Source: Acholoe squamosa (Eukaryota > Annelida > Polychaeta > Phyllodocida > Polynoidae). From it: a stretch of DNA of 64,000 nt. Positions 2,109-63,100 of the stretch are shown here, one piece after another (position 1 is the stretch's first letter; each line of letters opens with the position of its first letter). Position numbers and translations under genes: made by a program. Under the pieces are notes generated by a model. The model saw only the letters and a program-made list of their open reading frames with translations, made no database searches and was not told the DNA's origin. Location: the NCBI GenBank assembly GCA_949317995.1, contig OX439046.1:74788286-74852285 (forward strand). The letters run 5' to 3'.

Positions 2109-2840
2109 GGCTGTTACACTGTGTCCATAGGTAAAGCTCTGAGTTTCACCTCCTATCTATTGAAGCTTCTTGGTTTGTATACCAAACCTCTATATAAGAG
2201 AGACATATTCATACGTAACTTCTTGTGCATGGCCTGCCTTCATTTATCCCGATCAGGAGGGTCCTTGGGCCCTCCCTTCATAATGTGTACGGGTATCTAT
2301 GATATATTTTGGTCACTGGCACACTGACCTATTTATGTGCAAGTTGCCATCCATTTTTTCATAAAAATGGGAAAAAAAAAATCAAATTCGAAATGACACA
2401 AGCTTTGCAAAAATCAAAACATGTATACATGAAATTCAAAGAGCCATGTGAAACCTAGATTATACCAGGCTTTGGAAAAGACCCGTGGAGACTTTGAAGA
2501 ATATTAGGCCAATACCCCAACCCGTCCTCTCCCTGCAACTCAAATAGCCTGTTATTCACGGCTTATACACGAGGTTAAAAGGCACTGGTTTATCTCTGCG
2601 TATTATTACATTGTCCCAGTATTGTACCACAACAGTTGATGGACAGGCGTCATTCCAAGTCCCTCAAAATCCTAAACGAATCCAAATATTTAGTTTTACC
2701 TTTTTAATTAATACATTGGTTTGTTGAATCGTCGTCGAGCCCTACACAGACCAAATGAAGTGTCAACATCAACATTGGATACAAAAACACGCCATCGTCC
2801 ATTGTATTACAGAGCACGGAGAGTAATTATTCCCAGCCCT
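2109..2840. other. Non-coding stretch, no gene seen
   Basis: No ORF with protein-like composition, no splice-bounded exon and no clear inverted repeat. It includes A- and T-rich runs near 2350-2390. Nothing supports a first DDR exon here. Confidence 0.5.
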
Positions 2841-2844
2841 TTAA

Positions 2845-3132
2845 AGACTGATGATGCATTAATGCATCATGACAATGGGCATGATGCACCGATGCATTGA
2901 TGCATCATGCCTGGAACTGTCGAGTTGGCATGATGCACAACTGCAGTCCTTTGGAGTAACACTCATGCATCATGTCGATGATGATGCACGCTTATATGGG
3001 CGGGATGATGCATCAATGAATGATACACTCCTAGAGGGTTTGTTGTCATGATGCACCAATGAAGTGCGTCATGATGCACTTCATTGGTGCATCATGACGA
3101 CCTATAGGCATCATGCATTAATGCACTAGCGG
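2845..3132. repeat. Hairpin-rich (cloverleaf-type) repeat copy
   Basis: Series of palindromic modules: GATGCATTAATGCATCAT, CATGATGCACC..TGCATCATG, and CACCAATGAAGTGC followed by GCACTTCATTGGTGCATC. Ends with GCATTAATGCACTAGCGGC. Divergent copy of the family best seen at 59828-60079. Confidence 0.75.
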
Positions 3133-3221
3133 CACGTAAAGGTTTAATTAATAATAACCTTTGTGACTGCATTAATGCACTAGCGGCACGTAAAGGTTTA
3201 ATTAATAATAACCTTTGTGAC
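3114..3221 (+). repeat. 54-bp tandem duplication
   Basis: Bases 3114-3167 (TGCATTAATGCACTAGCGGC to TTTGTGAC) are repeated exactly at 3168-3221. The unit contains the end of the hairpin repeat plus TTTAATTAATAATAACC. Exact identity indicates a recent slippage or unequal exchange. Confidence 0.9.
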
Positions 3222-3677
3222 TGGCCGCCCGTGTAGAATACAGACTCCAGTCAGCGACAAGACAACATCCCTTTTTATAGCCCCCCCCCCCACCCCCGCC
3301 TGGCCTGGCATGTTTTTTGTGCACACCATTGGTTGTAATTTCCCGCCGTTTTGTCCAGGCCCGCCTTCCGGATGGTGACGTCATGTTATGGTGTTCACGC
3401 GCAAGCGCAGTGTGTCGATGATGGATATATCACATTTAGATCAATTTAGATTAGTGATTACTTTTCAATGTTAATATACACATACAAAAAACAGAAAGTA
3501 TTAGCTGGGTGGTATGACAGTGGTCATTTGTGTAGGAGACCTTGGTTTAGAGACTTATGATATAAATTGGCTATTGGGATATTCGTCGACTGACCTCAGC
3601 ATCTTGGTAGTTCTTGTGGCTTCCTTTGCACACAGACAAAGATCTTGTTACCTTCTCTTTGTAATGAATACTTCATA

Positions 3678-3887
3678 AATGCATCATGCCCATTGGTCGG
3701 CATGATGCATGAATGCATCCCTGGTGAGTCTACATTCGTGCATCATGCCGGGGGTGATACACTCCAGGAGGGTCGTCATGATGCTCCAATGAAGTGCTGG
3801 TGAGCAGTCTCACCAGCACTTCATTGGAGCATCATGATGCCCAATGGGCATGATGCACTCCTGCATCAGCGGCCCTGGAAGGGTTAA
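3678..3887. repeat. Hairpin-rich (cloverleaf-type) repeat copy
   Basis: Contains the H1 arm (CATGATGCATGAATGC...), and the H2 arm TGCTCCAATGAAGTGCTGG..CCAGCACTTCATTGGAGCA as a near-perfect hairpin. It closes with the base stem CCAATGGGCATGATGCA and GGGTTAA. It ends 56 bases before DDR exon a. Confidence 0.8.
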
Positions 3888-4033: not shown

Positions 4034-7000
4034 GTAAATAATACTCTATTGTTCATGTCTTATTTAACCCTTTATGGGTCGCTAGTACAGGAGTGCATCA
4101 TGCCCATTGGTCAATATGATGCACTGCTTGCTAGTTGTAAACGCTGACCCTCTGGGACATTTCTGTCATTTATGTTGGGTCACTCCAGCCTTAAAGGATT
4201 AGTCGTCATAAAGTAGGAGATATTCCTATTAAACCCGCCATTGCACTATATGAGCTGCAGGCCACTACCCTTTTTAAAGATGCTATCCCAGCTAAAATTT
4301 TATCATTTTTCAGAAATACCATATTTATAAGGGGTAACACTCCCTAAAAGTATTCCCCAACTTTTGAAATGATATTCAGTGTCTTTGAGCTTGACACATG
4401 CAGAATTATAGTAAAATTCTTTACTGTAGATTGACAGTAAAACCACCGGATAACATGACAAGTGTTTGGTATGTCATGGGTCAGTGATCACCTGTACAGA
4501 CTAGATTCCTAATGACCCATTAGTGGCACCTTGTGGCTACGTTATGCACTTCATACCCTCAAATTGCATTTGAAACAAAGTGTTCACATTATTAGATATG
4601 CTTATCTTAGGTTCCAGAGAGCTAACTCATATGATGACGTATAAAATGCAAGTTTTTTTTTGCATATTTTAACAAACAATGTATGGACATAGGTAGTTAG
4701 CAATGTTTGGTTTATACCTGTCATTGTAGGGGCCAGCTGGTGGTGCCCTCTTCAGTTATAGTCATTACCTGGCCCTGAACTAGTGAGAACTTTCCCGCCA
4801 TAGAATAGTGGTATTGCATACTTAGGTGTCCTCTGTTTGTATATATATGGAGCATATATGTCAACATAATATACCCCATTGATCTGGCAAAGAAGTAACA
4901 TTGACCACAGTATAGTTCCTTAATAACTTTCCATCAGGTCGTTTTAGTTGAAATTGCATCTTTAAATGCCCTCTGTGCCAGCTGATGTACACAGGTCAGC
5001 AATGTATCCATGAGATTTCTATGGATATATTGAGTCCCTGCTTTTCTAAAACAATGTGTGAACCAAGGGCAAATGATCCCATCTGAGAATAATTTGATAT
5101 TGTTATCTTATATTGAAGTAAATGCAGATGTAAATTTAAATATTACAACCCAGAAAACCATTTGTAGGGGTGAGTGACAGGCAGACACCTGCAGACCCTT
5201 TGATTGGTTATTCACTGACAGCACCAGTTGTTTGGTATACAGTTTGGCTGGTCCCCGGCCCCACCTCCCTCACTCGGTATAGGGCAGGTAGCTAGCAACT
5301 TCAAGCATTGGCAGCTGCAAAGCCTTGGTATAGGCGAGTGACCCACGCGCATGGGCATGCACATGCGCGTGGGTCACTCACCTATACCAAGGCTTTGTAG
5401 TTTGCCAATGCTTGAAGAGTGATATGCAAATCATAATTTATGATAATGATATTCTAGTCACGTGTTAGCTCTACTAGAACTCGTGACGTCATAAGGTCAG
5501 TTAGTAGCTACCAGCGGGCATATCGCATCGATCCCGCAGTGGTACCAGCGAAGTATACAGTATCAGAGACATACACAACACCATGTGGATGCCTGGGACT
5601 GGGCACAGCCTTACAGAAGTCTGCTTAGTACTCACTAAGGAGTAACAGTTGATTTGTCACTTTCACACAAATCACTACATGTATTACCATGAAGTGAATG
5701 GTGTGAATTTCAGAAAATGTCATTTTAGTATAACTGCTGTATAGAAGATTACAGCTTTTGGTTTTGGTGTCTAAATTCAAATCCAACAGTTTCTTGTCTC
5801 ATATATGACCTCTGACCCTGGGGTTGTCAGCACCTTGGGGTGACATAGACCACTTGCTGCACAGCCCTGCATGGGATATGGCTAGTCCATGAAATGCCTC
5901 CAAACTTACTGGAGGGCAACATGAGTCGCGGGTTTAAAGGCCACTGATGCAGGAGTGTCGGCATGACGCACCAATGAAGTGCTGGCGAGTCTGCTCGCCA
6001 ACACTTCATTGGAGCATCATGCCGACCCTCCGGGATAGTATCAACCCTGCAGGGTCAGCATGATGCATGAATGCAGCAAGGTTGGGGTGGCCCCTAGATT
6101 CAAGGGGGGAAGGACAAAAAATATTCCTATCATTATGATTGTAGGCAGTCGTGTATTTGAATAGAATAATCCAAGGCAATCACAGATATCTGAGATGGGT
6201 ACAAGAAGAGCCTGTCTCGTATAAGCACTGTGAGATATTGGAAGTCTTACAGCGTAGCCTGTATTGTACTCTGTCTGAGTCAGACAGTCCCCCCCCTGGT
6301 TACCCCCCCCCCCCGCCACTCAACCCTCGTTCACATTCCTGGCATTTCTCAAGCCTCCTCTCATCTCGGCCGAGGTCACGTGCTTATGGAATCTGATCTG
6401 ATTGGCCCCTTTTTCATTGAGATCCACCTGGGAGCAATTTCAGGAACCAGGAGGGGCCTGCAGGGAGGTGATGAGATGTGTTTCTGGCAGGACAACGGAG
6501 AAAAAATGTCGTCTGCAATTTGGAACTTCATTTTCCCGCCCTTATCCAGATGTCTCTGTAATGTGAGAATAATGTCTTTCTGCTGGTATGATGCATGAAT
6601 CCAGCCATGGTGAGTAACTCGCCAGTGCTGCAATGTGCTTGATCGAACGCAAACGTGACTATTAATTAGCTATTACATTTACAATAATCATAAACAGAGT
6701 AAAGATTATGATTTTTTTTTGCATATAATGATATGCCTAGGTGCATGTTTAGATTGATAGTAGGCATCACTTCTTTGTCCTTCCCCCCTTGAATCTAGGA
6801 GTCTCCCCAATATTGCTACATTCGTGCATCATACATACTCTACAGGGTGGAGGCACCTCCAGAGGGTCATCATGATACACCAATGAAGTGCTGGTGAGGA
6901 GACCCGTCAGCACATCATTGTTGCATCGTGACGATCAATGGGCATGATGCTCTTCTGCATCAGCGACCCTTAAAGAGTTAAGACAAGGGGTGTGAGACAT

Positions 7001-13000: not shown

Positions 13001-16000
13001 TAAGTATATTTGTTAAAAATGGAGACCCTACATTGTATCCAATTTCCCCAACTCCTTTGTGAATTTAGTTAAAACATGGGGTAGTTATTAGCAATTACTC
13101 TATAACAATTGTCATAGTTAGTTGGTCCCTTCAGTTGTTGTCTACACCCTGTCTTCCCTAAGTATATTGATGGTGATGTGCGACCTGACTAATTTGTTTT
13201 CATTTGTTTTCGTCGGAGCCTTCAAGTGCCAAGTAATGCATAAATGCGTCATTCACTTTGGTTACCATGGTACATAAATGAAGCCCTTATGAGTCTACTC
13301 ACCAAGGCTATGTTCAAGTATCATGGCGACCCTATACCATATTGTGTTGATATGGCGCATGGTGCCGGCCGGCAAGTCACCAGCTATTCATGCAAAAGAT
13401 GCGTATAATGCATTTATGCACTCAGTGGTATTAAAAGGCTTATGGCGCTTCCAACTTACCTCTCCAGATATTGTATTTTTCGAATTCCTACACTTAGTTT
13501 ATAAACAATTAGACCCATATTAGTTCTTCAATGTTGATTCAAATCCAATTCCAATTCCAACAACCCAACACCCAATTATCTATAGAAATACCCAATCATC
13601 CTCATGAACACCCCTCCTCCTCTATTTTTCCTGTTTTTTTCTCTTGGCATTATAAAATTTCACATTCTACAGCCCTTTATTAATCACATAGTGTCTTAAT
13701 GGACTGTTTATTGTATCATCGCAATGTGTGAAATTAGCCTTGTCGAGTCACTCGCCTTAGTTGTATTCATGCTCCTTGTTCCTTATTGGTGAGTTCCCTC
13801 AAGATGAGTCAGTATGATGCCACATGTAATGCCTGTAAAGCAGGTATTCCATTGCCATTGGTTGGCCAATTTTTTGCTAATCCGATTATTTTTTATTATG
13901 CAAAAGTATAGAAAGAATCAGTCCGATTAGTGAAAACTCATCCGACCAATGGCAGTGATATACCCGCTTAAATCACTCAACATTACTGTCTTGGGGCATC
14001 AAGATGACAAATTGAACATTGAGGCACTATGTGGTTTTTAGAGGGTTAAACACTGCATTGCTACCACTGAAACTTCACCTCATATTTCCAGGTACCTCAT
14101 GCACCCACACTGCACATTTCACTCTCTACCATCAGATTCAGTATTCCACATGGTTCCAAATATATCATTGATTTTCATACATTTGTTTTCTATTTTACAC
14201 CTGAAGATCACCATTTTGAATCAACAATTTGAAATGAAAAATATTTTGAACTTTCTAACCATAGCATTTCATCGCAATATTTTTCAGATGGTGTTGTGTC
14301 GTATGATATGCCCCAGGGTGAGCGCCGAGGCTCAGACATTAACCTGTTGGACTATACTTACGATGGCGACCGTAAGAACGGGTTACTATCTGGTGGCATG
14401 GGCCAACTCTTTGATGGGGTCGAGGGCCAACACAACTTCCGACTTGACCCCCACGGCCTCGGCATCAAGGGCTATGACTGGGTAGGCTGGCGGAACGAAT
14501 CCATGAACTCACGCGCGGTTGAGATGATCTTCAAATTCGATGATGTGCGTAACTTCACCGATATTCGGATCCATACAAACAATATGTTCAATAAGGATGT
14601 ACGAGTGTTCAAGACTGCTAGGATATCCTTCAGCGTGGGAGGCAGGTACTTTGTCGGTGAACCCATCGTGTTCCGGTTCATGAGGGATACGTTGATTGAG
14701 TATGCCCGCTATGTGATCATCCCGCTGCACCACCGGGTCGGCCAGTACGTCAAGGTCCAGCTGGAGTTTGATGACCGCTGGCTCATGATCAGCGAGATAC
14801 AGTTTGATTCAGGTATGGGTGTTATTTCTATTCCATAGTAAATATGCTGAAATACTGGGGTGACATAGAGCATTAAAATGTACAATTTACAATTTCATGG
14901 GGGGCTGTGAAATGTGTAGGATGCATAGTTTATGCTCAGGTCACATGCCTTTCTGGTGATATCATAGGATGTGACTGCAGACCCTGCTCATGAATCTATG
15001 CCTATAATTCTATTTTAAAATAGCTTTTCAATCGGTGCAAAGTATGTCTGTGTTTGATATCAGCATGTGGATGGTTAGAGTCTCAGGAGTAGGCTCCCTA
15101 TGTAAAGGCTGCATTTATACATCATGTTGGTCATTTGGGTGCAATTACTAGAAGTGATCAACAATGGTTTGAAGAACACTTACGATAATCTTACAAACTA
15201 CTTCTATATGTGAGAATACATTAAATAAAGGAAGCCAATTGCCTTCTTTGAAACAAAAAAAAAAAAAAAACTTTTATCACATCACTTATATATTACATCA
15301 CTATGAATTCTGTCAGTCTTGTAGTCTATTATGTGCATTTCAGATCACTTATATGGCTAAACCTAAAGATCTTCTCTAATCATTAACCCTTTAGATCCCT
15401 GTGACAACCTAAGGAGGGAATTCCTTTGGTCATCATTGGCCGAGAGACTTGTCTCCTCGGCCATATGTACATCATGTAGAAGGGGGACAGCAGGTCATGT
15501 CAAAAACAGCCAAAAGCCCTCTACTATAGATCAGCTACTGAAATCAGTCAACCATGACGAAGACTGTGGTGTACCAGTGTACCAGTACCAGTGTACCAGT
15601 GAATTGCTATTATTCCAGGTCATTCTGGGACGGGCTGATAGCTTCCACACCCACTCTAGGCGCCTCTAAGTACCTGTAGTCAATTGCTATTGTCCCAGGT
15701 CATCTAACAGCGCCGCAGCTCTGTCCCCTAGAGTCTCTGAGTGTTTGTTCAATCACTTCATAATTAGATGTCTCTACTACGATCTCTCAGCCATTACATC
15801 TGTGATCTACAATTCACTCTTAATAATGTCCTCAACCAAGCGTGATCTTGTATAGTTAACATTATATTATTTAACAATCTTACAAACTCACCTTTCAGAC
15901 TATGCAGTAGGAAACTTCACAGAAGAGAAACCACCAACAACAACACCAGCTCCAAGTACCACAGCGACGACTAATGTTGTGCACCTTAATGTTATAAACA

Positions 16001-24900: not shown

Positions 24901-25373
24901 ACTGGGCACGCATAACCGCATCATGATGACTCTTAGTGTAATTATCCTTTGGACTTTGTACAATGAAAGGGCAACCCCAAAAAAACACATGTCCATAAAG
25001 TGGTGACTATTTATTTACTTTGGCTTTGAGGTCATGACCTATGGTTATTGCACTTTATACCAAGATAATTTTGTGTGATGTTGAAACATGGTCCATCTTT
25101 TTCTTCTATCAACAATTTGTTTCTGACAGTCTGTAGAAAATATACTGTTATATAATTATTACACATGACTTCAATATGTGGTAGTAGAAATAATTATCAT
25201 CTAAAAATGCATATCTTATAAAATTTTGTAGAGTGACAGATTTTGACAATCACAAGTGATTAAGAGTGGATTGAATGGGTCTCCCTGATATGTTTTTGTT
25301 TTCAAATCTTACTGTTTCATGGACATCTTTTTAAATTTCATCAATAATAAGAATTGTCATATCGGGAGTACAG
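21974..25373. other. DDR 3' UTR and flanking DNA
   Basis: No coding feature seen. Early part is presumably 3' UTR. AATAAA-type signals occur, for example near 24420 and 24476, but I cannot choose the used site. A decayed hairpin repeat lies at 22655-22905. Confidence 0.5.
22655..22905. repeat. Decayed hairpin-family copy
   Basis: GACCCTTTAAGGGCAGCACT at the left and CTAAAAGGGTTGG at the right are the base-stem ends. Between them are ATGATGCCGTACTGGCGAGT and ACACACCGGTACTG, a worn hairpin arm. Confidence 0.55.
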
Positions 25374-26405
25374 TGGTAACAATCTCCATCATACGCCAGG
25401 CAGTGAATGAGAGTTACATCACCTGCTGTGTGATTCATCATGTGGTAACAATCTCCATCATACGTCAGGCAGTGAATGAGAGATACATCACCTGCTGTGT
25501 AATGTATCATGTGGTAACAATCTCCATCATACGTCAGGCAGTGAATGAGAGTTACATCACCTGCTGTGTGATGTATCATGTGGTAACAATCTCCATCATA
25601 CGTCAGGCAGTGAATGAGAGTTACATCACCTGCTGTGTGATGTATCATGTGGTAACAATCTCCATCATACGCCAGGCAGTGAATGAGTTACATCACCTGC
25701 TGTGTGATTCATCATGTGGTAACAATCTCCATCATACGCCAGGCAGTGAATGAGTTACATCACCTGCTGTGTGATTCATCATGTGGTAACAATCTCCATC
25801 ATACGTCAGGCAGTGAATGAGAGTTACATCACCTGCTGTGTGATTCATCATGTGGTAACAATCTCCATCATACGTCAGGCAGTGAATGAGAGTTACATCA
25901 CCTGCTGTGTGATGTATCATGTGGTAACAATCTCCATCATACGTCAGGCAGTGAATGAGAGATACATCACCTGCTGTGTGATGTATCATGTGGTAACAAT
26001 CTCCATCATACGTCAGGCAGTGAATGAGAGTTACATCACCTTCTGTGTGATGTATCGTGTGGTAACAATCTCCATCATACGTCAGGCAGTGAATGAGAGA
26101 TACATCACCTGCTGTGTGATGTATCATGTGGTAACAATCTCCATCATACGTCAGGCAGTGAATGAGAGTTACATCACCTGCTGTGTGATGTATCATGTGG
26201 TAACAATCTCCATCATACGTCAGGCAGTGAATGAGAGTTACATCACCTTCTGTGTGATGTATCGTGTGGTAACAATCTCCATCATACGTCAGGCAGTGAA
26301 TGAGAGATACATCACCTGCTGTGTGATGTATCATGTGGTAACAATCTCCATCATACGTCAGGCAGTGAACGAGAGTTACATCACCTGCTGTGTGATTCAT
26401 CATGT
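25374..26405. repeat. 69-bp minisatellite, about 15 copies
   Basis: Unit begins GGTAACAATCTCCATCATAC and includes CAGGCAGTGAATGAGAGTTA. Because 69 is a multiple of three, both strands stay open (up to 220-223 codons). Two units lack AG (67 bp), which breaks the frames near 25690-25760. A three-unit higher-order pattern of about 207 bp repeats at 26041 and 26248, marked by the CACCTTCTGTGTGATGTATC variant. Not judged coding. Confidence 0.95.
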
Positions 26406-28228
26406 GGCCTAAAAATATTGTTGTGTTTAGTTAACGCTACGGACCCTAATTTGTTAGCCCTACCCTAACCTTTGTATCGGCCTTTTTGAGAAGAAAATCT
26501 GAATTTTCTGCACTTATTTAGACATGGAAGTTCGTTTATGATTCTGCACATCAAATTCACAAGGCATAGGCATGATGATTTACTATCGACCTTAAAAACA
26601 TTCTCAAAAAGGAATCCCCTTTCTACTCTAATTTTGTTTTACCCCGTTACCTGAACACATTTTTAGGCCTCGTACAGCCGACACTACCATTTACATATAC
26701 CAGTGTTTTAACCCTTTAAGGACGACATGATCATGTATTGTACTATGACCCTAAGTAATGTAGCAGTAATTGCTTCAATAGACCATACCAACTCACACAA
26801 GATTCCTACCCACCTACCACCGGTCATCAAAATCTCTAGTTGGAGTAAAGGAATTATGTGGTCCTTAAATTATTGATTCCTACGTAATATCCCACCTTTT
26901 TCATTAACCCTTCTAAACTTTTAACTCTATACAGTGTCCATTGTCTTTCATTGTATTCCATGAATAAATATAAAAACATGTACAGATTGTGATTTGAGAA
27001 AAGAAATATAATCTTATCATTATCATTCCAAAAGGTTTGAATGAACTAGCCGGGATATAAATGTTGACAGGGGTCTTGACAGGTGAAGTTCCTATTTTCA
27101 TTTTTGCCTTGCATAATTCCCCTTCCATTACTATTTCAATATTTTAGATCACAATTCTGTTTTAATATCTAGATAAAACACCAATCTGCTATGTAGAGCC
27201 TGGGTGATATAACTGATGTGTAATAATAATTAACCATTATCCTGGTTTATTCATGTCATTGCATGTAGTTATATCAAAGTAGTGTAATAATTCTTTTATT
27301 AAATAAGTTTTAAAACATTGAAATATTTCTTTCAATGAGGTCAGCCACTTAGGAGAAAGGTTTCTTTTTACCTACTAAGAACATCTTTCTATATGGTTAT
27401 TCACATTGTATGTCCTTTAGTATTGCTGTTATAGCAATTCAATATTGCCATATATGATGTGGTCTCACTCCCCTATATTCACATATTGATATTTGCTGAT
27501 TGTGAAGTTGATAATTTGATATTTGAGCCAAGGTTTAGGGAAGAAAAGACATTCATGTGCACATCCCTAGCCAATACAAAATCTGTTGGTATTATTCACA
27601 ACTAAAAAATAATTTTCTTATGAAATGAACAGCCATGCATCGTGAACAAAGTGGATATTTCTAATATTTCTTTTCCTTAACAACAGTTCTCTCTCCACTA
27701 TTAGAGGTAATTTATCTCATTGCCTTCAAATAAGAAAATTATTTTTTGGGGTGTATTGATTGTCTCTTATGTAATACTTTTCATTCATTAATCTCTTTCC
27801 ATTGCTCCTCTCTGCTAGCCTGTGTATATAGGTAGAGCTGTACATATATTATGTATATAGCCACTGGTTTATATCATATCTGGTTCTCAGAAACTGAGGT
27901 ATATATGATACTGAGAGTGCCCACCGTGACCACCATATTACTCTATATATGTCCGAATATAAGCCGATCAGTGAAATCCACAGTGGAAACTTTGAAAGTA
28001 GTTATAATCTCTCTGTACTGATATTCTATCCTAACTGTAGTCACTTTATACGCAAGTTTGGATGTGCTATGATATGTGTCGGTGACACACGGTGGCGCTC
28101 TGCTGTCTCGTTTTGCGAGAATGTATAAATGAGTTTCAAGTGTTGGTTTGTGAATGTGTATGTGCAGAAAAAAATCTTTATTGTGTCCCAATGTATTCCT
28201 ATTATCTCTTTGAGGGCTGCATGATGCC
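26406..28228. other. Intergenic DNA, no feature recognised
   Basis: AT-rich. A TTTAACCCTTTAAGGACGAC near 26708 recalls the hairpin-family end but no arms follow clearly. No splice-bounded ORF. Confidence 0.45.
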
Positions 28229-28552
28229 TGACCCTTTAAGGGCCACTGGTGCATTGATGCATCATGCCCACTGGTCTTCATGATGCACTACTGAAGTGCA
28301 GGTCAGACTGCTCACCAGCACTCCATTAGAGCATCATGCCAACCCTACGGGAGTTTATGTATCAACCCCGTAGGGATGTCATGATGCATGATTGCAGCTA
28401 GGTAAATCCATTCACCAGGAGGACATTTGAAATGGCTATGTCAGCCAAATGCATGCCCATCATATTAGGCTGTGTTAGCCAACTCTAACATCGCAATGGG
28501 GGTTATGTTAGGCCATTTTGGAATAAGCACCAGGGCTACATTCATGCATCAT
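28229..28552. repeat. Hairpin repeat copy, divergent
   Basis: Base stem TGACCCTTTAAGGGCCACTG, TGCATTGATGCATCATGCCC, H2 arm (TGATGCACTACTGAAGTGCA ... CACTCCATTAGAGCATCATG), spacer CAACCCTACGGG..CCCCGTAGGGATG, and H1 left half at 28380 whose right half (GGGCTACATTCATGCATCAT) lies at 28531 after about 130 bases of other DNA. Confidence 0.75.
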
Positions 28553-29240
28553 TACAAGCAAAGGACTAAATGTATTCAAGCGTTATGCAGCATTTAAAGA
28601 GTCGGGCAGTGTAAAGAATGGTATTATACAGGAACTCCTCCTACCTTACATCTTTTGTTGAAGCAGAGCATCCAGTGGGCCCCATGTGCTCCATATAATA
28701 AGCTGCATGTAAATAAGGGCTGGAGATATTTTTGTAAAGGAGAATATTGTAAAGCTGATAATAATGATGATGAAAATGATGATGATGAAATTCTGTGTCA
28801 TGGTGAGAAATCCCCAATTATCACTCACTGGACTGGAATAAATGAATAAATAAAGATTGTGTCGTATTACATATGGAGTTTGTTTGTTCTGTTTATGACT
28901 GATTTGGTTTCCGACAAAGTCTGTTACTTCTTCACCATCATTTGAGAGAAAGTAAAATTATTCAACACCTGTTATTCAGTCATTATGAAGTAGGCTATAT
29001 CTATATCAAGCAACAGTATTTTATCACTGACAGAGGTTGGGGGATTTAATTTTGTTCAAGCTTTGACCTGGTCAGTTTTCAACAAGTTTATTGGCCAACA
29101 ATATCATAACATAGTGATGTTTTTTATAATTATCAGCCAGTGTAGCAAAAGTCAACAACAAAATAGACATATGTAATATGGTTAACATTCGGTGTACCAC
29201 AAATGGTTTCCATGAACAATCGTAATGAATCAGTAGCAAT
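28553..29240. other. Non-coding, AT-rich, includes a polyadenylation-like cluster
   Basis: Near 28838-28855 AATAAATGAATAAATAAAG could mark the 3' end of a transcript or retroelement on +. The lower part (to 29240) is probably the 3' UTR side of the minus-strand LINE. No gene recognised. Confidence 0.4.
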
Positions 29241-32211: not shown

Positions 32212-33850
32212 GAGTAAGGCTACCAAACTAACCTGTATAGTTACCATACCAACCTGTATAGTTACCAAACTAACCTGTATAGTTACCAAACTAACCTGTA
32301 TAGTTACCAATCTAACCTGTATAGTTACCATACCAACCTGTATAGTTACCAAACCAACCTGTATAGTTACCATACTAACCTGTATAGTTACCAAACCAAC
32401 CTGTATAGTTACCAAACTAACCTGTATAGTTACCATACTAACCTGTATAGTTACCAAACTAACCTGTATAGTTACCAAACCAACCTGTATAGTTACCAAA
32501 CCAACCTGTATAGTTACCAAACTAACCTGTATAGTTACCAAACTAACCTGTATAGTTACCAAACTAACCTGTATAGTTACCAAACCAACCTGTATAGTTA
32601 CCAAACTAACCTGTATAGTTACCAAACCAACCTGTATAGTTACCAAACCAACCTGTATAGTTACCAAACTAACCTGTATAGTTACCAAACCAACCTGTAT
32701 AGTTACCAAACCAACCTGTATAGTTACCAAACTAACCTGTATAGTTACCAAACCAACCTGTATAGTTACCAAACTAACCTGTATAGTTACCAAACTAACC
32801 TGTATAGTTACCATACTAACCTGTATAGTTACCATACTAACCTGTATAGTTACCAAACTAACCTGTATAGTTACCAAACTAACCTGTATTGTTACCAAAC
32901 TAACCTGTATAGTTACCAAACCAACCTGTATAGTTACCATACCAACCTGTATAGTTACCAAACTAACCTGTATAGTTACCAAACTAACCTGTATAGTTAC
33001 CAAACTAACCTGTATAGTTACCATACTAACCTGTATAGTTACTAAACCAACCTGTATAGTTACCAAACCAACCTGTATAGTTACCAAACTAACCTGTATA
33101 GTTACCAAACCAACCTGTATAGTTACCATACTAACCTGTATAGTTACCATACTAACCTGTATAGTTACCATACCAACCTGTATAGTTACCATATTAACCT
33201 GTATAGTTACCATACCAACCTGTATAGTTACCATACTAACCTGTATAGTTACCAAACCAACCTGTATAGTTACCATACCAACCTGTATGGTTACCATACC
33301 AACCTGTATAGTTACCATACTAACCTGTATAGTTACCAAACTAACCTGTATAGTTACCAAACTAACCTGTATAGTTACCAAACTAACCTGTATAGTTACC
33401 AAACTAACCTGTATAGTTACCAAACCAACCTGTATGGTTACCATACTAACCTGTATGGTTACCATACCAACCTGTATGGTTACCATACCAACCTGTATAG
33501 TTACCATACTAACCTGTATAGTTACCAAACTAACCTGTATAGTTACCAAACTAACCTGTATAGTTACCATAGCAACCTGTATAGTTACCAAACTAACCTG
33601 TATAGTTACCATACCAACCTACATTGTTACCATACCAACCTACATGTTTACCATACCAACCTACATGGTTAATATACCAACCTACATGGTCATCATACCA
33701 ACCTACATGGTTACCATACCAACCTACATGTTTACCATACCAACATACATGGTTACCATACCAACCTTCACGGTTACCATACCAACCTACATGGTCACCA
33801 TACCAACCTACATGGTTACCATACCAACCTACATGGTTATCATACCAATG
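32212..33850. repeat. 21-bp minisatellite, about 78 copies
   Basis: Unit CTAACCTGTATAGTTACCAA(A) with two frequent alternations (AAA/ATA and CTA/CCA). From about 33620 the unit changes to CCAACCTACATGGTTACCAT. As 21 is a multiple of three the array is open on both strands (555 codons on +, 491 on -), reading TCIVTKL/TCIVTIP or MVTIQVS. This is a by-product of period and composition; no start context, signal or flanking exon supports a protein. Confidence 0.95.
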
Positions 33851-33859
33851 TACATATGA

Positions 33860-34390
33860 TTACATCAAGGTAAATGGTACTATATGAATCTGAATGGTTA
33901 ACACCCTAGCACTGGATGGCATTTGTATGATATGTGATTATGTGTTTGCTATGGACTAGTGCTACATGTGTTATGTTTTGTTATTCATGTGTAGTGGTGT
34001 AGATGTGGTGTTAATCTATAATTACATAATTATAATTGTGGCAACAGACACGCCTGTGGGGTGTTTCAGAAGCAAGTAATGTTTACAACCGGTCATAAGG
34101 AGATATGATAACAGTTATAATAGTGGTTGTAGGCTTATACCTGCATGTGTTTCTAAAGCATTACCATTACCTTACTGTGTCTATAACTATATGACTGGTG
34201 AGAGAAGATAATGGTTGCAGTTGTAAGTTTAGAATCTAACAGTTTTAGAAACAGATATTTAATGTTCATTATCATGTCCGGCTTCTGAAAAAACCCACCG
34301 GCATGGTTAGTGTCTGCATGTGTTTACAGGAGTATACTGTCATGTATACAACAATCTGATAATGGCTGCCTGAATCCTCTAAGCCTTTGG
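33860..34390. other. Non-coding, no feature recognised
   Basis: TG-rich, AT-rich DNA between the 21-bp array and the next hairpin repeat. No gene seen. Confidence 0.45.
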
Positions 34391-34393
34391 TAG

Positions 34394-34590
34394 CTGATAT
34401 TGCATTAACTCATCATGTCCATTGGTGGTCCTGATGCATTAATGCAGCCCTGGTTAGTAACTCGCAAGGGCTATATTCATGCATCATGCGGACCCTGAAA
34501 CACATCTGGATGGTCAGCATGACGCTTCAATGGTGAATCATGGCGACCAATGGGCATGATGTGATCCTGCATTAGTGGCCCTTATTGCAT
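34394..34590. repeat. Hairpin repeat copy, divergent
   Basis: CATCATGTCCATTGGTGGTC, H1 arm (GATGCATTAATGCAGCCCTG ... AGGGCTATATTCATGCATCA), then a shortened H2 and the base-stem GACCAATGGGCATGATG with TGCATTAGTGGCCCTTATTG. Confidence 0.75.
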
Positions 34591-34734
34591 TCCTTTTTCA
34601 GATCTAAATGATCTTCCTTAAATGGTTAATGGCTGATAATGTAGGAGTAAATCAAGCCGACTTTCTGGGAGTGTATCATCATCATGAAGTCAGCATGATG
34701 CATGAATGTAGCCCTGGGAGGTTAGTCGCCATTA

Positions 34735-37790: not shown

Positions 37791-38455
37791 AGTATGATGT
37801 GTTGACCATCCATGTGTAACCAAGGTATATGTAAAAGCTTCATTATAGCCAATAGGGTCATGTAGAGAATTACACTATACATGTAGTTTAGATGTAGTGG
37901 AAGGGAGGGGCGGGTTTTGGGAGATGTGTTGGTGACACCTTACACACATAGTGCACCAGGACAGGGTGAACTGATAGCAGGACAGGGTAAGTCTTTATGA
38001 ATTTACTACCTCAAGATAACTCAAATAAAATGTTGTTTATTATTGTAGACGTTAATGCTTGTAATATTTTGGGTGGCTATCAAATCTGCAATTCCCCATT
38101 GTATGAATTGCATTGATGTCCTTGGTTTTTTCATAGCAATCATTTATCTCTTTAATACTAGTCCAAGAAAAAAGTCATGAAAGACCTCTCCACCCGATCG
38201 GTTCACTCGTCTAATAACTACTGAGTTCACCACTTCGATCTAGAGATTGTAACATATAATATATGATGCCAGGATTAGGCAGGATTCTGTATATCCAGCG
38301 GATACATGTATCATAACTGTTTTACATTTGCCAAATTATGTATCACTATACGACTGACTGTTTTAGGCATCAGATCATTTGCAAATCATAATATTATTGA
38401 TACAACTGTTAAACATGTAACATGGGCATAAATTTAATGAATGCAATGAACAAAC
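37791..38455. other. Non-coding, no feature recognised
   Basis: AT-rich DNA between the DIRS element and the 18-bp array; nothing gene-like seen. Confidence 0.45.
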
Positions 38456-38868
38456 CCTATACACAGGGTGCACCTTATACACAGGGTGCATCTTATACAC
38501 AGGGTGCATCTTATACACAGGGTGTACCTTATACACAGGGTGTGTCTTATACACAGGGTGCACCTTATATGCAGGGTGTGCCTTATACACAGGGTGTGTC
38601 TTATACACAGGGTGCACCTTATATGCAGGGTGTGCCTTATACACAGGGTGTGTCTTATACACAGGGTGCACCATATACACAGGTGCAGCTTATACACAAG
38701 GTACACCTTATACACAGGGTGCACCTTATACACAAGGTACACCTTATACACAGGGTGCACCTTATACACAGGGTGCATCTTATACACAGGGTGTACCTTA
38801 TACACAGGGTGCACCTTATACACAGGGTGCACCTTATACACAGGGTGCACCTTATACACAGGGTGTTT
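38456..38868. repeat. 18-bp minisatellite, about 23 copies
   Basis: Unit CTTATACACAGGGTGCAC with GTGT, GCAT and TATGCAG variants. A 2-base loss in one unit near 38683 shifts the frame. Open on both strands because 18 is a multiple of three (QGAPYT / HPVYKV). CTGTGTATAAGCTGCACC at 39013 and related TATAAGG(C/T)GCA strings nearby look like the unrepeated parent sequence. Confidence 0.95.
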
Positions 38869-49028: not shown

Positions 49029-49887
49029 AATATAATTCTAATAATCGTATATATATATCACTATATTTTCATATAATATATACACATTTATTAACTGCTG
49101 TACAACAGCAGTTAATCTGTCCCAAGTTAACATGCCCCTGTAAAGAGGACTTTTTCACATGTTGGCCTACTTACTTTCAGTTCCAGTTTATCATTACCAC
49201 ATAACTCACGTACTGGGACAACTAGATTCTCAGGGTCCTTGATAACTTGCCCAGTTCTCGGACAGGTCCAATTCTTGGATGACTTTTTTGGAGTTAGCTA
49301 AATGTTATTTCAGGCCATAAACCCTATTTTATTTTGATTTCCTCTCTGTTATATCTAATAGATGTCTATTCCCAATGTTAAATTTCATGTGGTTGGTGCC
49401 CTCTGTTGGTATCAATTGAAACTTCTGTCCGAGAATTGGACTATTAAAAATGCGGTGTCAGGTAATTGGGCAGGATGACATGCATATTTCCTGACAATTT
49501 TGATAATTGATATTCTAAAACCAAAATTAGAGTGAATATACTAGCAAATACCTCAAGACTTCTAGTTCATCAATATCTAATAATGGTGGTGAGCCTGCTT
49601 CAGCTTGTAAAGCTATCTTTAAAATACAGATGCTGTCCATGAACTGGGACACTCATCAGAGAACTGGGCACTTTTGAATGTCTATACAATCCCCTTATAA
49701 CAACTATAAATGTTAGGGAGACTTTTTATTATGATACCAAGGGGCCCGATCCATGCATCCTGCTAAGCCTAGATGTGTGAAACCAAGTTGTGCCAGTTTA
49801 GTAGTCTCCCAAAAGTAAAGCTGTCCAACAACTGGGCAAGTTAACTACATGTGTACAATAAGTAGCAACATTCATAGTCATTGTCGT
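49029..49887. other. Non-coding with recurrent AACTGGGCA motifs
   Basis: CTTGCCCAGTTCTCGGACAG (near 49247), CCGAGAATTGGAC, TAATTGGGCAGG, GAACTGGGCAC and CAACTGGGCAAG recur in both orientations between 49240 and 49840, hinting at a transposon end region. No ORF. Confidence 0.45.
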
Positions 49888-50098
49888 CATGGTGCATGAG
49901 TGCAGCCCTACAGCCCTAACTCACCAGGGCTCCATTCATGCATCACGCCTGCCCTGCGGGATTGATACACAAACTCACGGAGGGTCATCATGATGCACCA
50001 ATCAAGTGCTGGCGAGTCTGCTTGCCAGCACTTCATTGGTGCATCATGATGACCAATGGCCATGATGCATTAATGCATCAGCATCCCCTAAAGGGTTA
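49888..50098. repeat. Hairpin (cloverleaf-type) repeat, well preserved
   Basis: H1 arm 49888-49947, spacer arm CCTGCCCTGCGGG...CACGGAGGGTCAT 49948-49988, H2 arm CATGATGCACCAATCAAGTG ... TTCATTGGTGCATCATG 49989-50048 (near-perfect 27-bp stem), base-stem module with GCATTAATGC and CTAAAGGGTTA to 50098. The left base-stem module is reduced. Confidence 0.85.
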
Positions 50099-50124
50099 CA
50101 GAATCTGCCTGAAGTGAGGGTGCA

Positions 50125-51362
50125 CCTTATAGCTGAGGGTATTATATTATAGAACAGCACTAACTTATAGCCGTATAGCTGAGGGTATTATATTATAGAA
50201 CAGCATTAACCTATAGTCTTATAGCTGAGGGTATTATATTATAGAACATCACTAACTTATAGCCGTATAGCTGAGGGTATTATATTATAGAACAGCACAA
50301 ACTTATAGCCTTATAGCTGAGGGTATTATATTATAGAACAGCACTAACTTATAGCCTTATAGCTGAGGGTATTATATCATAGAACAGCACTAACTTATAG
50401 CCTTATAGCTGAGGGTATTATATCATAGAACAGCACTAACTTATAGCTGTATAGCTGAGGGTTTATATTGTAGAACAGTTCTAACTTATAGCCTTATAGC
50501 TGAGGGTATTATATTATAGAACAGCACTAACTTATAGCCTTATAGCTGAGGGTATTATATCATAGAACAGCACTAACGTATAGCCTTATAGCTGAGGGTA
50601 TTATATTATAGAACAGCACTAACTTATAGCCTTATAGCTGAGGGTATTATATCATAGAACAGCACTAACTTATAGCTGTATAGCTGAGGGTATTATATTG
50701 TAGAACAGTACTAACTTATAGCTGTATAGCTGAGGGTATTATATTATAGAACAGCAATAACTTATAGCCTTATAGCTGAGGGTATTATATTATAGAACAG
50801 CACTAACTTATAGCTGTATAGCTGAGGGTATTATATTATAGAACAGCAATAACTTATAGCCTCATAGCTGAGGGTATTATATTATAGAACAGCACTAACT
50901 TATAGCTGTATAGCTGAGGGTATTATATTGTAGAACAGTACTAACTTATAGCCTTATAGCTGAGGGTATTATATTATAGAACAGCAATAACTTATAGCCT
51001 TATAGCTGAGGGTATTATATTATAGAACAGCACAAACTTATAGCCTTATAGCTGAGGGTATTATATCATAGAACAGCACTAACTTATAGCCTTATAGCTG
51101 AGGGTATTATATCATAGAACAGCACTAACGTATAGCCTTATAGCTGAGGCTATTATATTATAGAACAGCACTAACTTATAGCCTTATAGCTGAGGGTATT
51201 ATATCATAGAACAGCACTAACTTATAGCCTTATAGCTGAGGGTATTATATTATAGAACATCACTAACTTATAGCCTTATAGCTGAGGGTATTATATCATA
51301 GAACAGCACTAACTTATAGCCTTATACTGAGGGTATTATATCATAGAACCGTACTAAGTTAT
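50125..51362 (+). repeat. 46-bp minisatellite, about 27 copies
   Basis: Unit CTTATAGCCTTATAGCTGAG followed by GGTATTATATTATAGAACAG and CACTAA. Variants are ATTATAG/ATCATAG and CCTTATAG/CTGTATAG. It starts from GGTGCACCTTATAGCTGAGG at 50119, which resembles the unit of the 18-bp array. No long ORF, since 46 is not a multiple of three. Confidence 0.95.
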
Positions 51363-51519
51363 AGAGTCTGGATCCAGAATCAAGTGAACAAGAATTCTTT
51401 TTCATTGTTGATTTATAGGTTTGTTTATCTGTCTAGTAAAGATTGAGAAATGTAGGCCACAAGACCTGAGGGCATGTGTCCTTGTACGTCAGTTATCTAC
51501 CCATTAGCCCATTAGAGGC

Positions 51520-52040
51520 ACATAGTGCATACATCTCTCATGATGCACCAATGAAGTGCTAGCGAGTCTGCTTACCAGTACTTCATTGGTGCATCATGCC
51601 ACCCTCAGGTACTGTATTAACCCTATGGGTCGGCATGATGCAGGAAATTATGATGTATGAAACACCTGGCGAGTTACTCACCAGAGCTGCATTCATACAT
51701 CATGCACTGAAAACCTAGAAGTTCTGAAACTAGTCAGCGGTGACCACTTAAGGTCCTCAAGTTGACGATACCTAAAACTACAACTTTAGGTAGTTAAAAT
51801 GACGACTTTAAGTCGTCATCCTGACGACCTGAGTCGTCAATATGACGACTCTGTACTGTCAGTATTGTCATCCTGATGACTCACGTCGTCAGGATGACGA
51901 CCTAAAGCTGTAGTTTTAGGTATCGTCAACTTGAGGACCTTAAGTGGTCACCGCTGACTAGTTTCGGATCTTCCATGTTTTCAGTGTGGTTACCAATTGG
52001 CATGATGCACTAATGCATCAGTGGCCCTCACAGGGTTAAA
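51520..52040. repeat. Hairpin repeat copy split by a palindromic MITE
   Basis: H2 arm 51539-51598 (ATGATGCACCAATGAAGTGC ... ACTTCATTGGTGCATCATGC), spacer, a worn H1 arm to 51704, then after the MITE the base-stem CAATTGGCATGATGCACTAA and GGCCCTCACAGGGTTAA at 51990-52038. Confidence 0.82.
51705..51986. mobile_element. CACTG-ended palindromic MITE, 282 bp
   Basis: Almost completely self-complementary: CACTGAAAAC ... CTAGTCAGCGGTGACCACTT, AAGGTCCTCAAGTTGACGAT in the left half and the complements in the right half. The core is a run of GTCGTC/GACGAC blocks (CGTCATCCTGACGACCTGAG). Possible TG duplication at both sides. It sits inside a hairpin repeat. The CACTG ends recall EnSpm/CACTA but the 2-base duplication does not prove it. 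Confidence 0.85.
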
Positions 52041-57100: not shown

Positions 57101-60100
57101 AATACTGCCATTTTGGGGGTCGGCGAGTAAAAAATTCAACAAAAAATCGGCCCTGCCCCCTCCAAACAAGCTGGGGGGTCATCCCAAAATATCCAAAGAT
57201 GGTCTAATGCACCCTAGTAGTAATGGTAGACCCTAATTTCAACATATAACAATGATTTGGGGCTAAATATACAACGTGAGTTGCTCAGCAGAGCCATTTC
57301 CACAACCTGGCGAAAACGTTACGTACGTGATAAAAACAAATAATCGAAGTTCAGGGAGGTCCGGGGCCCAAAACAATGGCGTCAACCGGCCGAGATGGCA
57401 AGAGAATTTGACTGTGGTCGATTCTACGTCCACATACATCATTTCTGCGTATTATTTGCACAATCAAAGCCATCTACGGACACTCACATACGTAACAATC
57501 GATATTCCATCACACTTTCATGGGAATTACCTACCTTTTTTGTGGTTTTAGGAAGAAACAAGGACAAGTAAACTTCACTCTTTGCAAGTTCGAGATCCTC
57601 TGAGCATGTTGCAAAAGTTCCCGGATGTGGGTCACTTCCGCCCGGTTAACAGGAAGCATCTTCGTTTGGCACCATAAATTTTCGTTACGTAGGTGAGGTT
57701 TGCCGCGAGCAAGAGAAAGACACCCACTGTGGCCATACTACACGGTCTGTGGCTTTGATTTTTGCTTCAATTATTCCATTTATATTTAAACTAAACCAAA
57801 ATAGACTAGAAATGAAGAATTATAAATTTATGTAGCAAGTAGACTTGTAAAAGTATACCTCACGTACGTAACATTGTCGGGAGTTGAATTTTGGTTTATG
57901 AGATCTAGCTCGTATCTGCGACAGACCAGCAGTTTTATTTATTTAACATCAGAACCCCCCTAGGGACCCTGTTGAACACAATTAATAGAGAAAGGGAGGA
58001 TACATTTTTATTATGGTAGTTAGGGGCATAAAAAAAAAGTTACGTACGTGAGGTCGCTCATAGTTCCATATTATAAGACATGCGGGACAGAGGGTTGAGG
58101 CTGTGACATGACCAAAGCATTTTTGATAGATGGCTACGACCCCCCACCTATGTTTAAAGAGGTTTATGGCACTGTAACACTGTCTACCTTGATAAAATAT
58201 TGGTGGGAAGGATGAAAAATTGGCAAAAAAAAAGGCATTTTTGGTGTGTCATCTAACTTAAAGACTCTGTAACTCATCAAATTATAAGCCGATATACATA
58301 AATCTGCCCTCTGCTTGAAGCTCAAGATGTTTTCTATCAAATGTCATTAAAATAAGGAAGAATGGTAATCTACATTTTATACTGTAGCTCCCCAAAGCTA
58401 AATAATACCCAAAATAGGCCCATACATCGCTCAGTGAATCCCCCCATATACTTCACTCTATGTAATGGGTCCAGGTTAGCTGCATTTCAATGTATTAGTA
58501 TGGAGAAACCCATCCTGTTTCAGTTGATAATGGGCTGTTCTAAAGGTCAACTTTGAGCATTTCATAAAAATAATTGAGTTGAAATCCATTAAATCTACTT
58601 TTTGTGAAAATTATTTCAATGTCTAATGTATGAGGGGGTGCAGTAGAGAACATTGGAGCACCATTCCTAGAGAGTGAGAAGGATATTTCATTTACCACTA
58701 ATATGAGCTCAGTGAAGTCATTTCTGGTACATTTCATGTTTGCTTAGTTCCCATGCCACTCACATGATGTCTCCACTGTGTCATACTTTGACCATTTCCT
58801 TGCCTTCTAGCTCTGTCAGACATGGTCATACTCTAGTCTGCTACAAGGTGGCGCCTAAGCACTGGGCTCTCCTCCTGCTTTCTCCATAATAACTGCACAA
58901 GGGCCATTTCCAAATGCATCTAAACTGAAAATCATGTGGTCCAATGATACATGGTAAACTGTAAACTGTCTTCTTTCACTGGAATACATCAAGTTTATGA
59001 GTGGTATCAACTCTAAACAACATTGAAATGTTACATAGGACCCTCCCCTAAGGGGAAAAGTAGATTGGGTGTTCTAGGACTGCGTCATTAGGCATTACTT
59101 GGACTAGACTATGGAGGAAAAGGCCAAAACTTTGGGCCATTTTTCACCTCTAAATCCCAATATCTCCAAAAATAATGTGACAACATTTGCAAATGTGCCC
59201 TTAGTTTGAAGCCCCAGAGGTTTACCATCAAATATGACTAGAAGAAGGAAGAATGGTGCTCTGAATCATTTACCGTAGCTTCCAGCAGCAAAAAAGACCC
59301 AACAAGATTTTTTGGTGAACCTGCCCATATCAGTGAGCAATTTCCAGCAGGAAGAAAAATGAGTTGCTCCATAGATAACTATATAAGAGCCAAAAAGACC
59401 AAAAATAAAAAGGAGCCCCCTCTACAGAGGGATCAAGGCTCTCAAGCTTTAAATACAAAACAAGTTTAAAACAGTGTCACATGAGCGGCAGGTGATACTA
59501 CATAGGATGCTCCATATATAGTTGTAGACTGACCAATATAGTGCTCCCCAAACACCAATAGAGGCTTTCCCAAACACCAATAGAGTGCTCCCCAAACACC
59601 AATAGAGGCTTTTCTCAGTAGCCATAATATCTGCATAAATGCTTTATATGGTGAGTTAATCCTCAACATATCAATTGCAGGTAACAGCCTGTTACAGGTG
59701 ATCGATGTGCGTAACGTGTACAATCCACGAGTCATGTTCTACTTTGAGGTGGACGGTGGTGGTCTCTCTGATGTAGAGATATGTGGAGGGTATGTGTGTA
59801 TGTTTTATGCCATCCTTTCACCGTTTAAACCTTCACGGGCCACTGATCCATTAATGTATCATGCCTATTGAACGTCATGATGCATGAATGCAGCCCTGGT
59901 GAGTAACTCACCAGGGCTGCATGAATGCATCATGCTGACCCTACAAGATTGATACACAAACTCCCAGAGGGTCAGCATGATGCTCCAATGAAGTTCTGGA
60001 GAGAAATCTTGCTAGCACTTCATTGGTGCATCATGATGACTAATGGGCATGATGCATTAATGGATCAGGGGTCCATGAGGGGGGCAAATATGGTACATCA

Positions 60101-63100
60101 TTCCCATTAGGACATGTAAGAATGCATTAACTGGCCAAGACTGCATCATGTTGACCCTGTTTGCATCATTGCCATTGGTTGTCAAGATGCATCAGTGCGT
60201 CCCAGGTGAGTTACTGTATGGATGCATTAATCACACAGGAAAGATAAGATCCTGGAAGTTTGTCTTGATATACCAATGTATGCAATGCCGGCAAGTAGAC
60301 TCTTTAGGACTTCATTAGCGAATCACGCCGACGAAAGAATAGAACTCCTTATAACTTATAGATCATGAATGGTTTATAAAAAGTTGGAAATCAAAGTTTA
60401 ATAGAATCTACTTGTTCATTGACTAGGTATGTGGCAGTGAGTTTCACCAATACCAGAGACTGGTTACTGGGACGAGTCCTTGTTTACAAAGCCTACAACC
60501 CTGAGTGGTACACCAACCCCATGCCGCTTGTACACAACATCACTGGTAAGTTGCACTGTAAGAAATAACTGTTCAATCTACCAAGGATCCTCATTAAACT
60601 GAACAGTTGACCACTGTAATTGTATAGCATTGAAGGTCAGCATGTGGGTGGCAGTACGGTGGTACACAAACATACAAGGAAGCTCTGTGGTAATAATGAC
60701 GTATCTCTGGCACCTTTGGGACAAGGATTGCACTGTTATTTCGCAGACATTTCTTTTTACAGTGCAGCATCCATGGCACCATACCCATGCCTCCTACTAC
60801 ATTCTAACACACTGTATATAATAGACTCCCAGTGCGGTTGTAACAATGAACCACCATAAACCACAGGGAGCCAGTGTATATAGTTTTTACAAGATACCCC
60901 AGGTTGCAGTGTGGTGATACAAGGAATTATTTATGCACCCAACACTTCTTTTAACATTCTAGTTGGCCCCTTACCAGACATGTTACTGTTCACCAAGTCA
61001 TGCAGTAAGATCCTCGTTGCGTTAGAAGGTAACCTTCGAGTTGTGGATGGTGAGGTAGTGGACCCAGAGGGAGGCGTTGGTATCATCAGCTTCTATGGAG
61101 GACACCCAGGAGGAACTCCACACCTTAAAGTGGCATACTTTACCACATTTAATGCACAGTGAGTTTTTGAACATTCATGAGATAAGCTCAAGGTACTTAA
61201 AAGAATCTTAGAGACCTGTGATACCACTTTTCTGTAATGCATTGTAAAAGAAAAAGAAACACTCCACATCAAGCTATACGATAGTATTTTACCTATTGTA
61301 CAAGAACTTGAATTTAGCGGTGTTGTGGGTTTCCCTGTTTTTTTTTCTTCTCGTTTTCATTTTTCTCTTATTGTTATATACATTCAAAGTACTGTCATTA
61401 GGAAGTGAGAGTCAAATATATTCAAACTAGAACTTATTCTGATTTCCTTGCAAGATGTTTATCATTACAACATGAAATGCAGTGAAATTGCTAAAAAGTG
61501 AATCACCTCCGCCTGTGTATTTTCTCCCCATAGTACATCTGTGTACTTGTCTCGGGGTGTGAGGAAGGCATATAATGGTGAAGGGACCAACATGACGACG
61601 ACTCTGTCACAGGATCTGGAACCTGAATATTTAGCTATTAATAATGACAGCACTATAGCCTATGTCACAATGCAAGTAAGTTTGTTTACAATATAGTGGG
61701 CGCTAGTTATGAATACGGGCTGCAGATCAACAAGCAATCCTATAGAGTCAGTCTGTTGCAAAAAAAACGTAGCCCAGCTGTATTGGCAAAGAGCTGCTAA
61801 TAGATTAAATGTTGCAAATTTGGACATGCCTGGCCCCTTTTAAAGTAAAATCAAGTTGTTTTGGGCAACTAATTGACATTGGTCAGTAAACGGTTTCTTA
61901 ACCTAATTGCTTTTACAAAACCTATTATATGAATTCTGTTATTCAGTTTAAACATAAATATCTAATGTTGAAGTAGCTGACAGCTGCCCAATTTCTGAAT
62001 TAGGCCACTCCCGTTCATCACCGCCCACATCGGAAAATTTTATTTTTGTAGAGCCTTACATGAAAATCTACAAAGCAATGAACAAAAGTAGTCAGGATGG
62101 TATCAAATGAAAGCCTTTGGTTCAGGGGATGTAGTAATAATGGTTATTCTTGTACCTTGAAAATTTCAATGAAAATCTATTATAAATGCTTTTTTTCTTT
62201 CATGTGGATGTTTGTTTGTTTTGACCTCATCTTGAAATTTCTAAGAGTAAATTAACTAATTTCCCTGTAAAATTATGCTCTGCAATAATTTGGAGAAGGT
62301 GTTAAACTTTCAATCTAGCCCGATGAAGGTTTGCTCTGGAAAGAAAGTGGTTGTTAACATTATATCTATACAACAGGAGAACAATGCTATAGCCACATTG
62401 GACGTACAACGAGGGGAGTTTCTGGAGCTTTACCCGCTAGGATCCAAGTCATGGATGTACAGTGGGCTGGATGCTAGCGATGCGGATAGAGGTATGATAC
62501 TTTATTTCATGATCAGTATGACAATCCCATAGGTATAACATTGCAGCTTTGTCAACCATTCCCCACGAGATAATCCTTCCCCATTTTTAAACAGTTAAGC
62601 TTGCTTTATGTCAGTGATTGACACAAAAGCTGGTGCATACACAGTTATAGTTGCTTTATTTCAGAGGAAAAACATCAAAATCTGGCCCATGCACATGTAC
62701 CTACACTTGCTTTTATTTCAGAGATTTACAGCCTGCCAGTGCGGTAGAATTTACACACATGCCAAATACCCGTCTTACTACAATCGGTTATACAGATCTA
62801 ATGCATTGGATGAAGAACATGCCCAGGATTGATATCAAAACCCATACAATGCACAGTTTTTACATACCAGATACCTTTTACATGGATTATTGTGCTGTAA
62901 AAAGGACAGTTCTCTCAGCCTGATGCATAATTGCAAGTTCGAGTTAATTTTTATCATACATATTCATACTCGCTTTATTTCAGGGATCAACATCAAACCC
63001 TGGCCCATACATAGTTTCTACATGCCGGACGGCACTGTCTACATGAAAATCCATGGGCGGGGCTATATATTTACTGCCAATGAGGGAGACTCAAAGGAGT

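Follow-up and report, generated by a model that had tools for sequence, protein, structure and literature searches.

A high-copy TTAA-bounded MITE family of Acholoe squamosa, probably of piggyBac type, with a consensus that folds as a stem bearing three hairpin arms

Foldback elements and ordinary hairpin MITEs carry long inverted repeats that can fold on one strand, as does the MITE described here, but they usually form one stem rather than four helices and make other target duplications. The nearest described relatives found are the coral CMITEs, piggyBac-type MITEs of Acropora, which resemble the present family (PMC2872659) in TTAA duplication, CC[C/T]T-type termini and lack of coding sequence, and further in having several families with a common internal region, tandem arrays and likely mobilization by piggyBac; they differ in being about 100 bp long with TIRs of 13-14 bp, and the words hairpin and secondary structure are absent from the text, unlike the four-helix plan reported here. 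The ends of piggyBac and piggyBat (PMC11707139) are alike in targeting TTAA and in carrying short palindromes and motifs repeated in subterminal position; these elements are instead protein-coding, with palindromes of 19 bp in piggyBac and the motif GCGGGA in piggyBat, and no four-way junction of a whole element appears there. KolobokP and other Kolobok elements, which occur in molluscs, likewise duplicate TTAA, but their termini are 5'-RR and YY-3' and KolobokP has long terminal direct repeats (PMC9587614). Among the literature matches listed, titles and abstract openings disclose neither this family nor any MITE of stem-and-three-arm shape, which agrees with the sequence-only reading that knew of no named family of such shape; the family may stand in Repbase or Dfam.

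The focal element and its relatives

The window, i.e. the whole 64-kb stretch of DNA that was analyzed (G000:C12:74788286-74852285), belongs to a genome of 1.48 Gb in 63 contigs, which was searched for relatives. Within it the focal copy is a discrete element at about 59825-60087, its ends being set by the alignment of relatives slightly beyond the limits 59828-60079 given earlier; both ends are degenerate TTAA sites, and the copy matches positions 2-258 of the 262 in the family profile (E 1.1e-84). The five modules first described for 59828-60079 are borne out in their order by inverted repeats I1, I3 and I4:

59825..60087, + strand: focal element, from TTAA-type end to TTAA-type end (profile match and end columns of the alignment)
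59825..59875, + strand: left base module, the terminal inverted repeat (inverted repeat I1 and consensus fold)
59876..59934, + strand: H1 hairpin (inverted repeat I4, 29-nt arms, 93% complementary)
59927..59983, + strand: spacer hairpin (third hairpin in the folded consensus, with limits taken from the sequence)
59971..60040, + strand: H2 hairpin, paralogue of H1 (inverted repeat I3, 34-nt arms, 82% complementary)
60036..60087, + strand: right base module (pairs with the left base module, both in I1 and in the folded consensus)

The basal arms (I1, 59830-59893 and 60018-60081) are 80% complementary, and the spacer hairpin overlaps H1 and H2 by its outer bases.

For the search with the focal copy, the best 40 of 4,707 first-look candidates were scored, the focal copy included, and the 39 non-self copies were taken with ~400 bp on each side and aligned with it. 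In this alignment of 40 copies homology breaks off abruptly at a TTAA on each side, beyond which the flanks are unrelated, and the element termini are TTAA-CCCTTTAAGGGCC...GGCCCTTAAAGGG-TTAA (i.e. TTAA-CCCT...AGGG-TTAA). The majority consensus of the sampled relatives is 262 nt long (TTAACCCTTTAAGGGCC...GGCCCTTAAAGGGTTAA), has a terminal inverted repeat of ~52 bp and folds as a four-way junction in which a basal stem of ~52 bp or more and three hairpins leave nearly all bases paired. Its fold energy of -154 kcal/mol (DNA parameters) makes it clearer than the focal copy, which folds on the same plan at -92 kcal/mol and diverges from the consensus by 13.7%. The stem with three hairpin arms is thus, as first described, the reproducible plan of a real mobile-repeat family, and the element, being short, uniform, dispersed and bounded by TIRs, is a MITE.

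The full set of 78 copies comprises the focal copy, the 39 from the focal-copy search, and 18 and 20 from two further sets; the longer versions L002-L008 of L009-L015 were counted once, and L110, a segmental duplicate of L109, was included in the counts of TTAA ends and excluded from those of covariation, H1/H2 and CpG. These copies are the best matches in the genome and divide into a main subfamily (57 copies) and a second one (20 copies; 20 of the 39 non-self copies of that set were aligned, and all 39 were used for chromosome positions). Copies of the main subfamily differ from the consensus by 8.6% on average (5.3% at the least) and those of the second by 13.1%; on these values the sampled copies are not recent.

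Copies within the window were found with a profile built from the 40 genomic copies (focal copy included). In addition to the focal element they are as follows, where insertions marked as apparent or as a reading are interpretations of the sequence:

3656..3887, + strand: family copy, inner part of H1 missing (profile 23-261, E 4.1e-63; sequence)
49854..50099, + strand: family copy (profile 35-261, E 1.4e-61)
28228..28605, - strand: family copy with an apparent foreign insertion in H1 (profile 63-260, E 1.5e-51)
34373..34592, + strand: family copy, inner part of H2 missing (profile 3-254, E 2.9e-41; sequence)
6550..6981, + strand: family copy split by an insertion of ~180 bp in H1, a reading (profile 34-98 and 90-261, best E 4.7e-40)
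51502..52039, - strand: family copy with an apparent insertion between base and H1 (profile 51-258 at 51705-51508, 2-53 at 52038-51987)
2833..3147, + strand: rearranged family copy (profile 18-261, E 2.8e-38)
5929..6089, - strand: shortened family copy (profile 92-255, E 4.2e-38)
13214..13443, + strand: diverged family copy (profile 4-260, E 5.1e-21)
60157..60352, + strand: degraded copy adjoining the focal element (profile 31-221, E 1.1e-20)

All 13 places listed in the sequence-only reading match the family profile (E <= 1e-3), but its statement that at least twelve copies keep the module order or its inverse was too strong. About ten window copies have at least three modules in order (2.9, 3.7, 5.9, 6.8, 13.2, 28.2, 34.4, 49.9, 51.5 and 59.8 kb), the 13.2 kb copy being weak and the one at 60.1 kb a weak eleventh; those at 6.8 and 13.2 kb are additions to the earlier list. 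The matches at 4.1, 10.2 and 39.9 kb each amount to little more than one module, and that at 22.7 kb is marginal. Since every hairpin is self-complementary, the apparent inverse order is simply the opposite strand. If the hairpin modules spread and assembled independently, as in satellite-like arrays, there would be no single mobile unit, and one-module fragments such as these would be in keeping with that, as would end-like arrays of 37-38 bp units near two piggyBac loci (L078, L079), one of them beside an array of H2-like hairpins. The best 40 scored matches to the consensus, however, lie on many chromosomes and each cover at least 249 of its 262 positions at 90-95% identity, and this together with the sharp TTAA ends of the copies makes independent assembly highly improbable.

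Target site, termini and superfamily

TTAA within 6 bp of the extrapolated ends was found at both ends in 26 of the 78 copies, at one end in 30 and at neither in 22, the last figure speaking against a TTAA-targeting piggyBac element. In 18 copies TTAA lies exactly at each extrapolated end; among them the base beyond it agrees in 5/18 and 6/18, approximately the chance level, and the duplication is therefore limited to TTAA. Two nested copies bear on the same point: L038 sits within the H2 arm of another family member and L046 in a CCCT-TTAA-GGG palindrome near the end of another copy, and in both cases joining the flanks at one TTAA gives a host family copy whose alignment is ungapped at the junction. 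The joined alignment of L038 has a 10-nt gap a few bases beyond the junction, and in that of L046 one side of the junction is covered by only about seven bases; the two are moderate evidence, and fit a 4-bp TTAA target duplication. Comparison of flanks among the fetched sequences and a genome search with the flanks of L114, which matched solely the two halves of L114 itself, recovered no empty site in an unrelated repeat, a further point against the piggyBac/TTAA reading. Taken with the end counts, the nested copies support TTAA as the duplicated target.

The focal copy is best read, with a probability of roughly 0.8, as a single old insertion of a non-autonomous cut-and-paste transposon of high copy number, a piggyBac-type MITE. 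The hallmark termini of piggyBac are CC[C/T]T (PMC2872659), and the consensus has CCCT after TTAA, the target that piggyBac also requires. The genome contains 90 matches to the piggyBac transposase (PF13843), and at three of 30 examined transposase loci (L048, L049, L052) paired TTAA-CCC[A/T] inverted ends lie 2.7-3.3 kb apart. The MITE's own TIR was found on both sides of a transposase neither at the 30 loci (mostly with ~1.5 kb flanks) nor in six longer stretches (L078, L079, L118-L121), which counts against the piggyBac reading and is the reason that the mobilizing transposase is one we infer. Membership in Kolobok or another TTAA-targeting superfamily would accommodate both this result and the TTAA duplication, which Kolobok shares (PMC9587614); yet the family has termini CCC...GGG where that source gives 5'-RR and YY-3' for Kolobok, and Kolobok parentage was rejected on these terminal bases, leaving membership outside piggyBac unlikely. 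The piggyBac-type MITE is accordingly retained as the preferred reading, and the family is an old, scattered, non-coding, non-autonomous DNA transposon.

A 37-38 bp unit similar to the MITE end (TTAACCCTTTATGG...GCATGATGCATTGATGCAC) forms tandem arrays 3' of two piggyBac transposase fragments (L078:1-1082 and L079:4464-4768), and at one such locus an array of ~100-bp units with H2-like hairpins stands beside the 37-38 bp array. The TTAACCCTTTATGG arrays were considered as ends of the autonomous partner and rejected on the left end of the L078 element, which differs (TTAACCCTCTGAGCCC, as in L052); our reading is that they are separate arrays with similar end motifs. L118, L119 and L120 represent a young piggyBac family on two chromosomes, with 96-99.6% identity over kilobases and tandem arrays on both sides; within the stretches examined, no paired TTAA-CC ends were found for these or for L121.

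Several observations concern genomic position. The best copies crowd near chromosome ends, 50/56 of the main and 37/39 of the second subfamily lying within 20% of an end; the corresponding figure for piggyBac transposase loci is 10/37 (37 positions merged from the 90 PF13843 matches), and the window itself is distal. The window also contains tandem arrays at 25373-26407 (unit 69 bp), 32221-33830 (21 bp), 38454-38865 (18 bp) and 50125-51364 (46 bp).

No detectable coordination between arm halves in dispersed copies

Comparison of paired positions among the copies shows that the arms change without detectable coordination. For the main subfamily (57 copies) 121 consensus pairs were scored against a null model in which one column of each pair was shuffled among copies (300 shuffles). 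Compensatory double changes number 53, compared with 49.8 ± 6.0 after shuffling (92/300 shuffles reach 53), single-sided changes 1,017 (1,008 ± 15 shuffled) and the Watson-Crick fraction is 0.847 (0.847 ± 0.002 shuffled). The second subfamily (20 copies) has 25 compensatory changes against 20.8 ± 3.9, a value reached in 51/300 shuffles, and a Watson-Crick fraction of 0.790 against 0.785 ± 0.004; an initial run with 40 copies, all within the 57, gave 43 against 37.2 ± 4.7. Compensatory counts are slightly over the shuffled mean in every run and significant in none. When compensation was planted at 1, 2 and 3% of single-sided changes the mean z was 1.6, 3.8 and 4.2, respectively; compensation of 2% or more would therefore have shown, and 1% might not. 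At the ends, 66 of 77 copies could be classed, of which 24 are non-complementary and none has the compensated combination.

The sequence-only reading had proposed that substitutions in one half of an arm are often matched in the other, giving GGTGAG/CTCACC against GGCGAG/CTCGCC as its example, and that the fold itself is maintained. These claims do not survive in the sampled copies, where matched substitutions do not exceed chance and no departure from independently varying arms is detected, the very outcome that the reading itself had named as contrary to it. The quoted example is a CpG on both arms, whose halves show no association in H1 (23 copies with neither side changed, 10 with the left alone, 15 with the right alone and 9 with both; Fisher p 0.58) or in H2 (32, 13, 7 and 4 in the same order; p 0.72). 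Divergence at CpG sites is 24.5% compared with 7.0% elsewhere, and transitions make up 278 of the 334 CpG changes; the quoted case fits independent CpG decay.

The hairpins themselves tell of an earlier divergence. In the consensus the left arms of H1 and H2 are identical at 22 of 28 positions, and the two are thus duplicated hairpins; six pair positions differ, and four of these have changed on both sides and are paired in both hairpins. Divergence between the ancestral paralogues is largely paired, unlike divergence among dead copies, and since four of the six differences are compensated, pairing was upheld in the source element.

These compensated differences also enter into two explanations that place maintenance of the fold in the dispersed copies. 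Selection for a functional DNA or RNA cloverleaf would account for the near-complete pairing of the consensus, for the H1/H2 differences and for compensatory counts slightly above the shuffled mean; but shuffling reaches those counts freely in both subfamilies, planted compensation of 2% is readily detected, the non-complementary ends are never compensated, and the window has no Rfam match at gathering scores, so that a known RNA family was rejected too. We give such selection very little credence. Palindromes can template repair that copies one arm half onto the other, and if this continued in dispersed copies it too would suit the H1/H2 pattern, but matched changes are then predicted among the copies, and counting rare changes only, 10 are compensated against 8.4 ± 2.6 in the 57 copies and 6 against 4.0 ± 1.7 in the 20. 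Templated repair is very unlikely on these numbers, for which a rate near 1% of changes may fall below detection. The copies decay base by base, and no upkeep of the fold is detected in them.

Source of the arms and implications

What remains is that the fold came down from a source element where the pairing of the arms had been kept up or formed anew. The paired divergence of H1 and H2 could reflect selection on active source elements or re-formation of arms during DNA synthesis; either would do. In the proposed history, the hairpins of the source element would have arisen by duplication of one hairpin, giving the paralogues H1 and H2, and would also have been shaped by inverted-repeat formation during DNA synthesis. 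A piggyBac-type transposase supplied in trans by another element would have bound the ends, then excised the MITE and inserted it at TTAA, steps suggested by the ends and the target, and the branched potential would have been carried along passively from the source element into the copies. After insertion each copy would decay by single substitutions, chiefly CpG loss, and by loss of inner arm parts and nested insertions; each of these processes is observed among the copies.

Six occurrences of the motif CATGATG or its complement lie at module borders of the consensus, against a mean of 0.04 in shuffled sequence. Transposases of piggyBac and piggyBat bind repeated subterminal motifs and short palindromes (PMC11707139), and by analogy it is a reasonable guess that CATGATG may be a putative subterminal transposase-binding box. 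It is conceivable, though doubtful, that the multi-armed fold or the CATGATG-bounded hairpins were a working part of the active source, serving as a structured transposase substrate or a transpososome scaffold that was kept or regenerated in each source lineage via compensated changes. If true, this would explain the contrast between H1 and H2, whose differences are mainly in matched pairs, and the dead copies, which decay freely; the family would then be a MITE that owed its success to a branched DNA structure.

A caution for repeat families follows from the CpG example: arm changes that match can readily pass for covariation if CpGs in both halves are decaying independently. Ordinary MITEs are pictured as one hairpin, and a high-copy TTAA element with four paired helices along its whole length is an unusual architecture, one that makes it testable whether internal palindromes aid MITE transposition or are merely tolerated.
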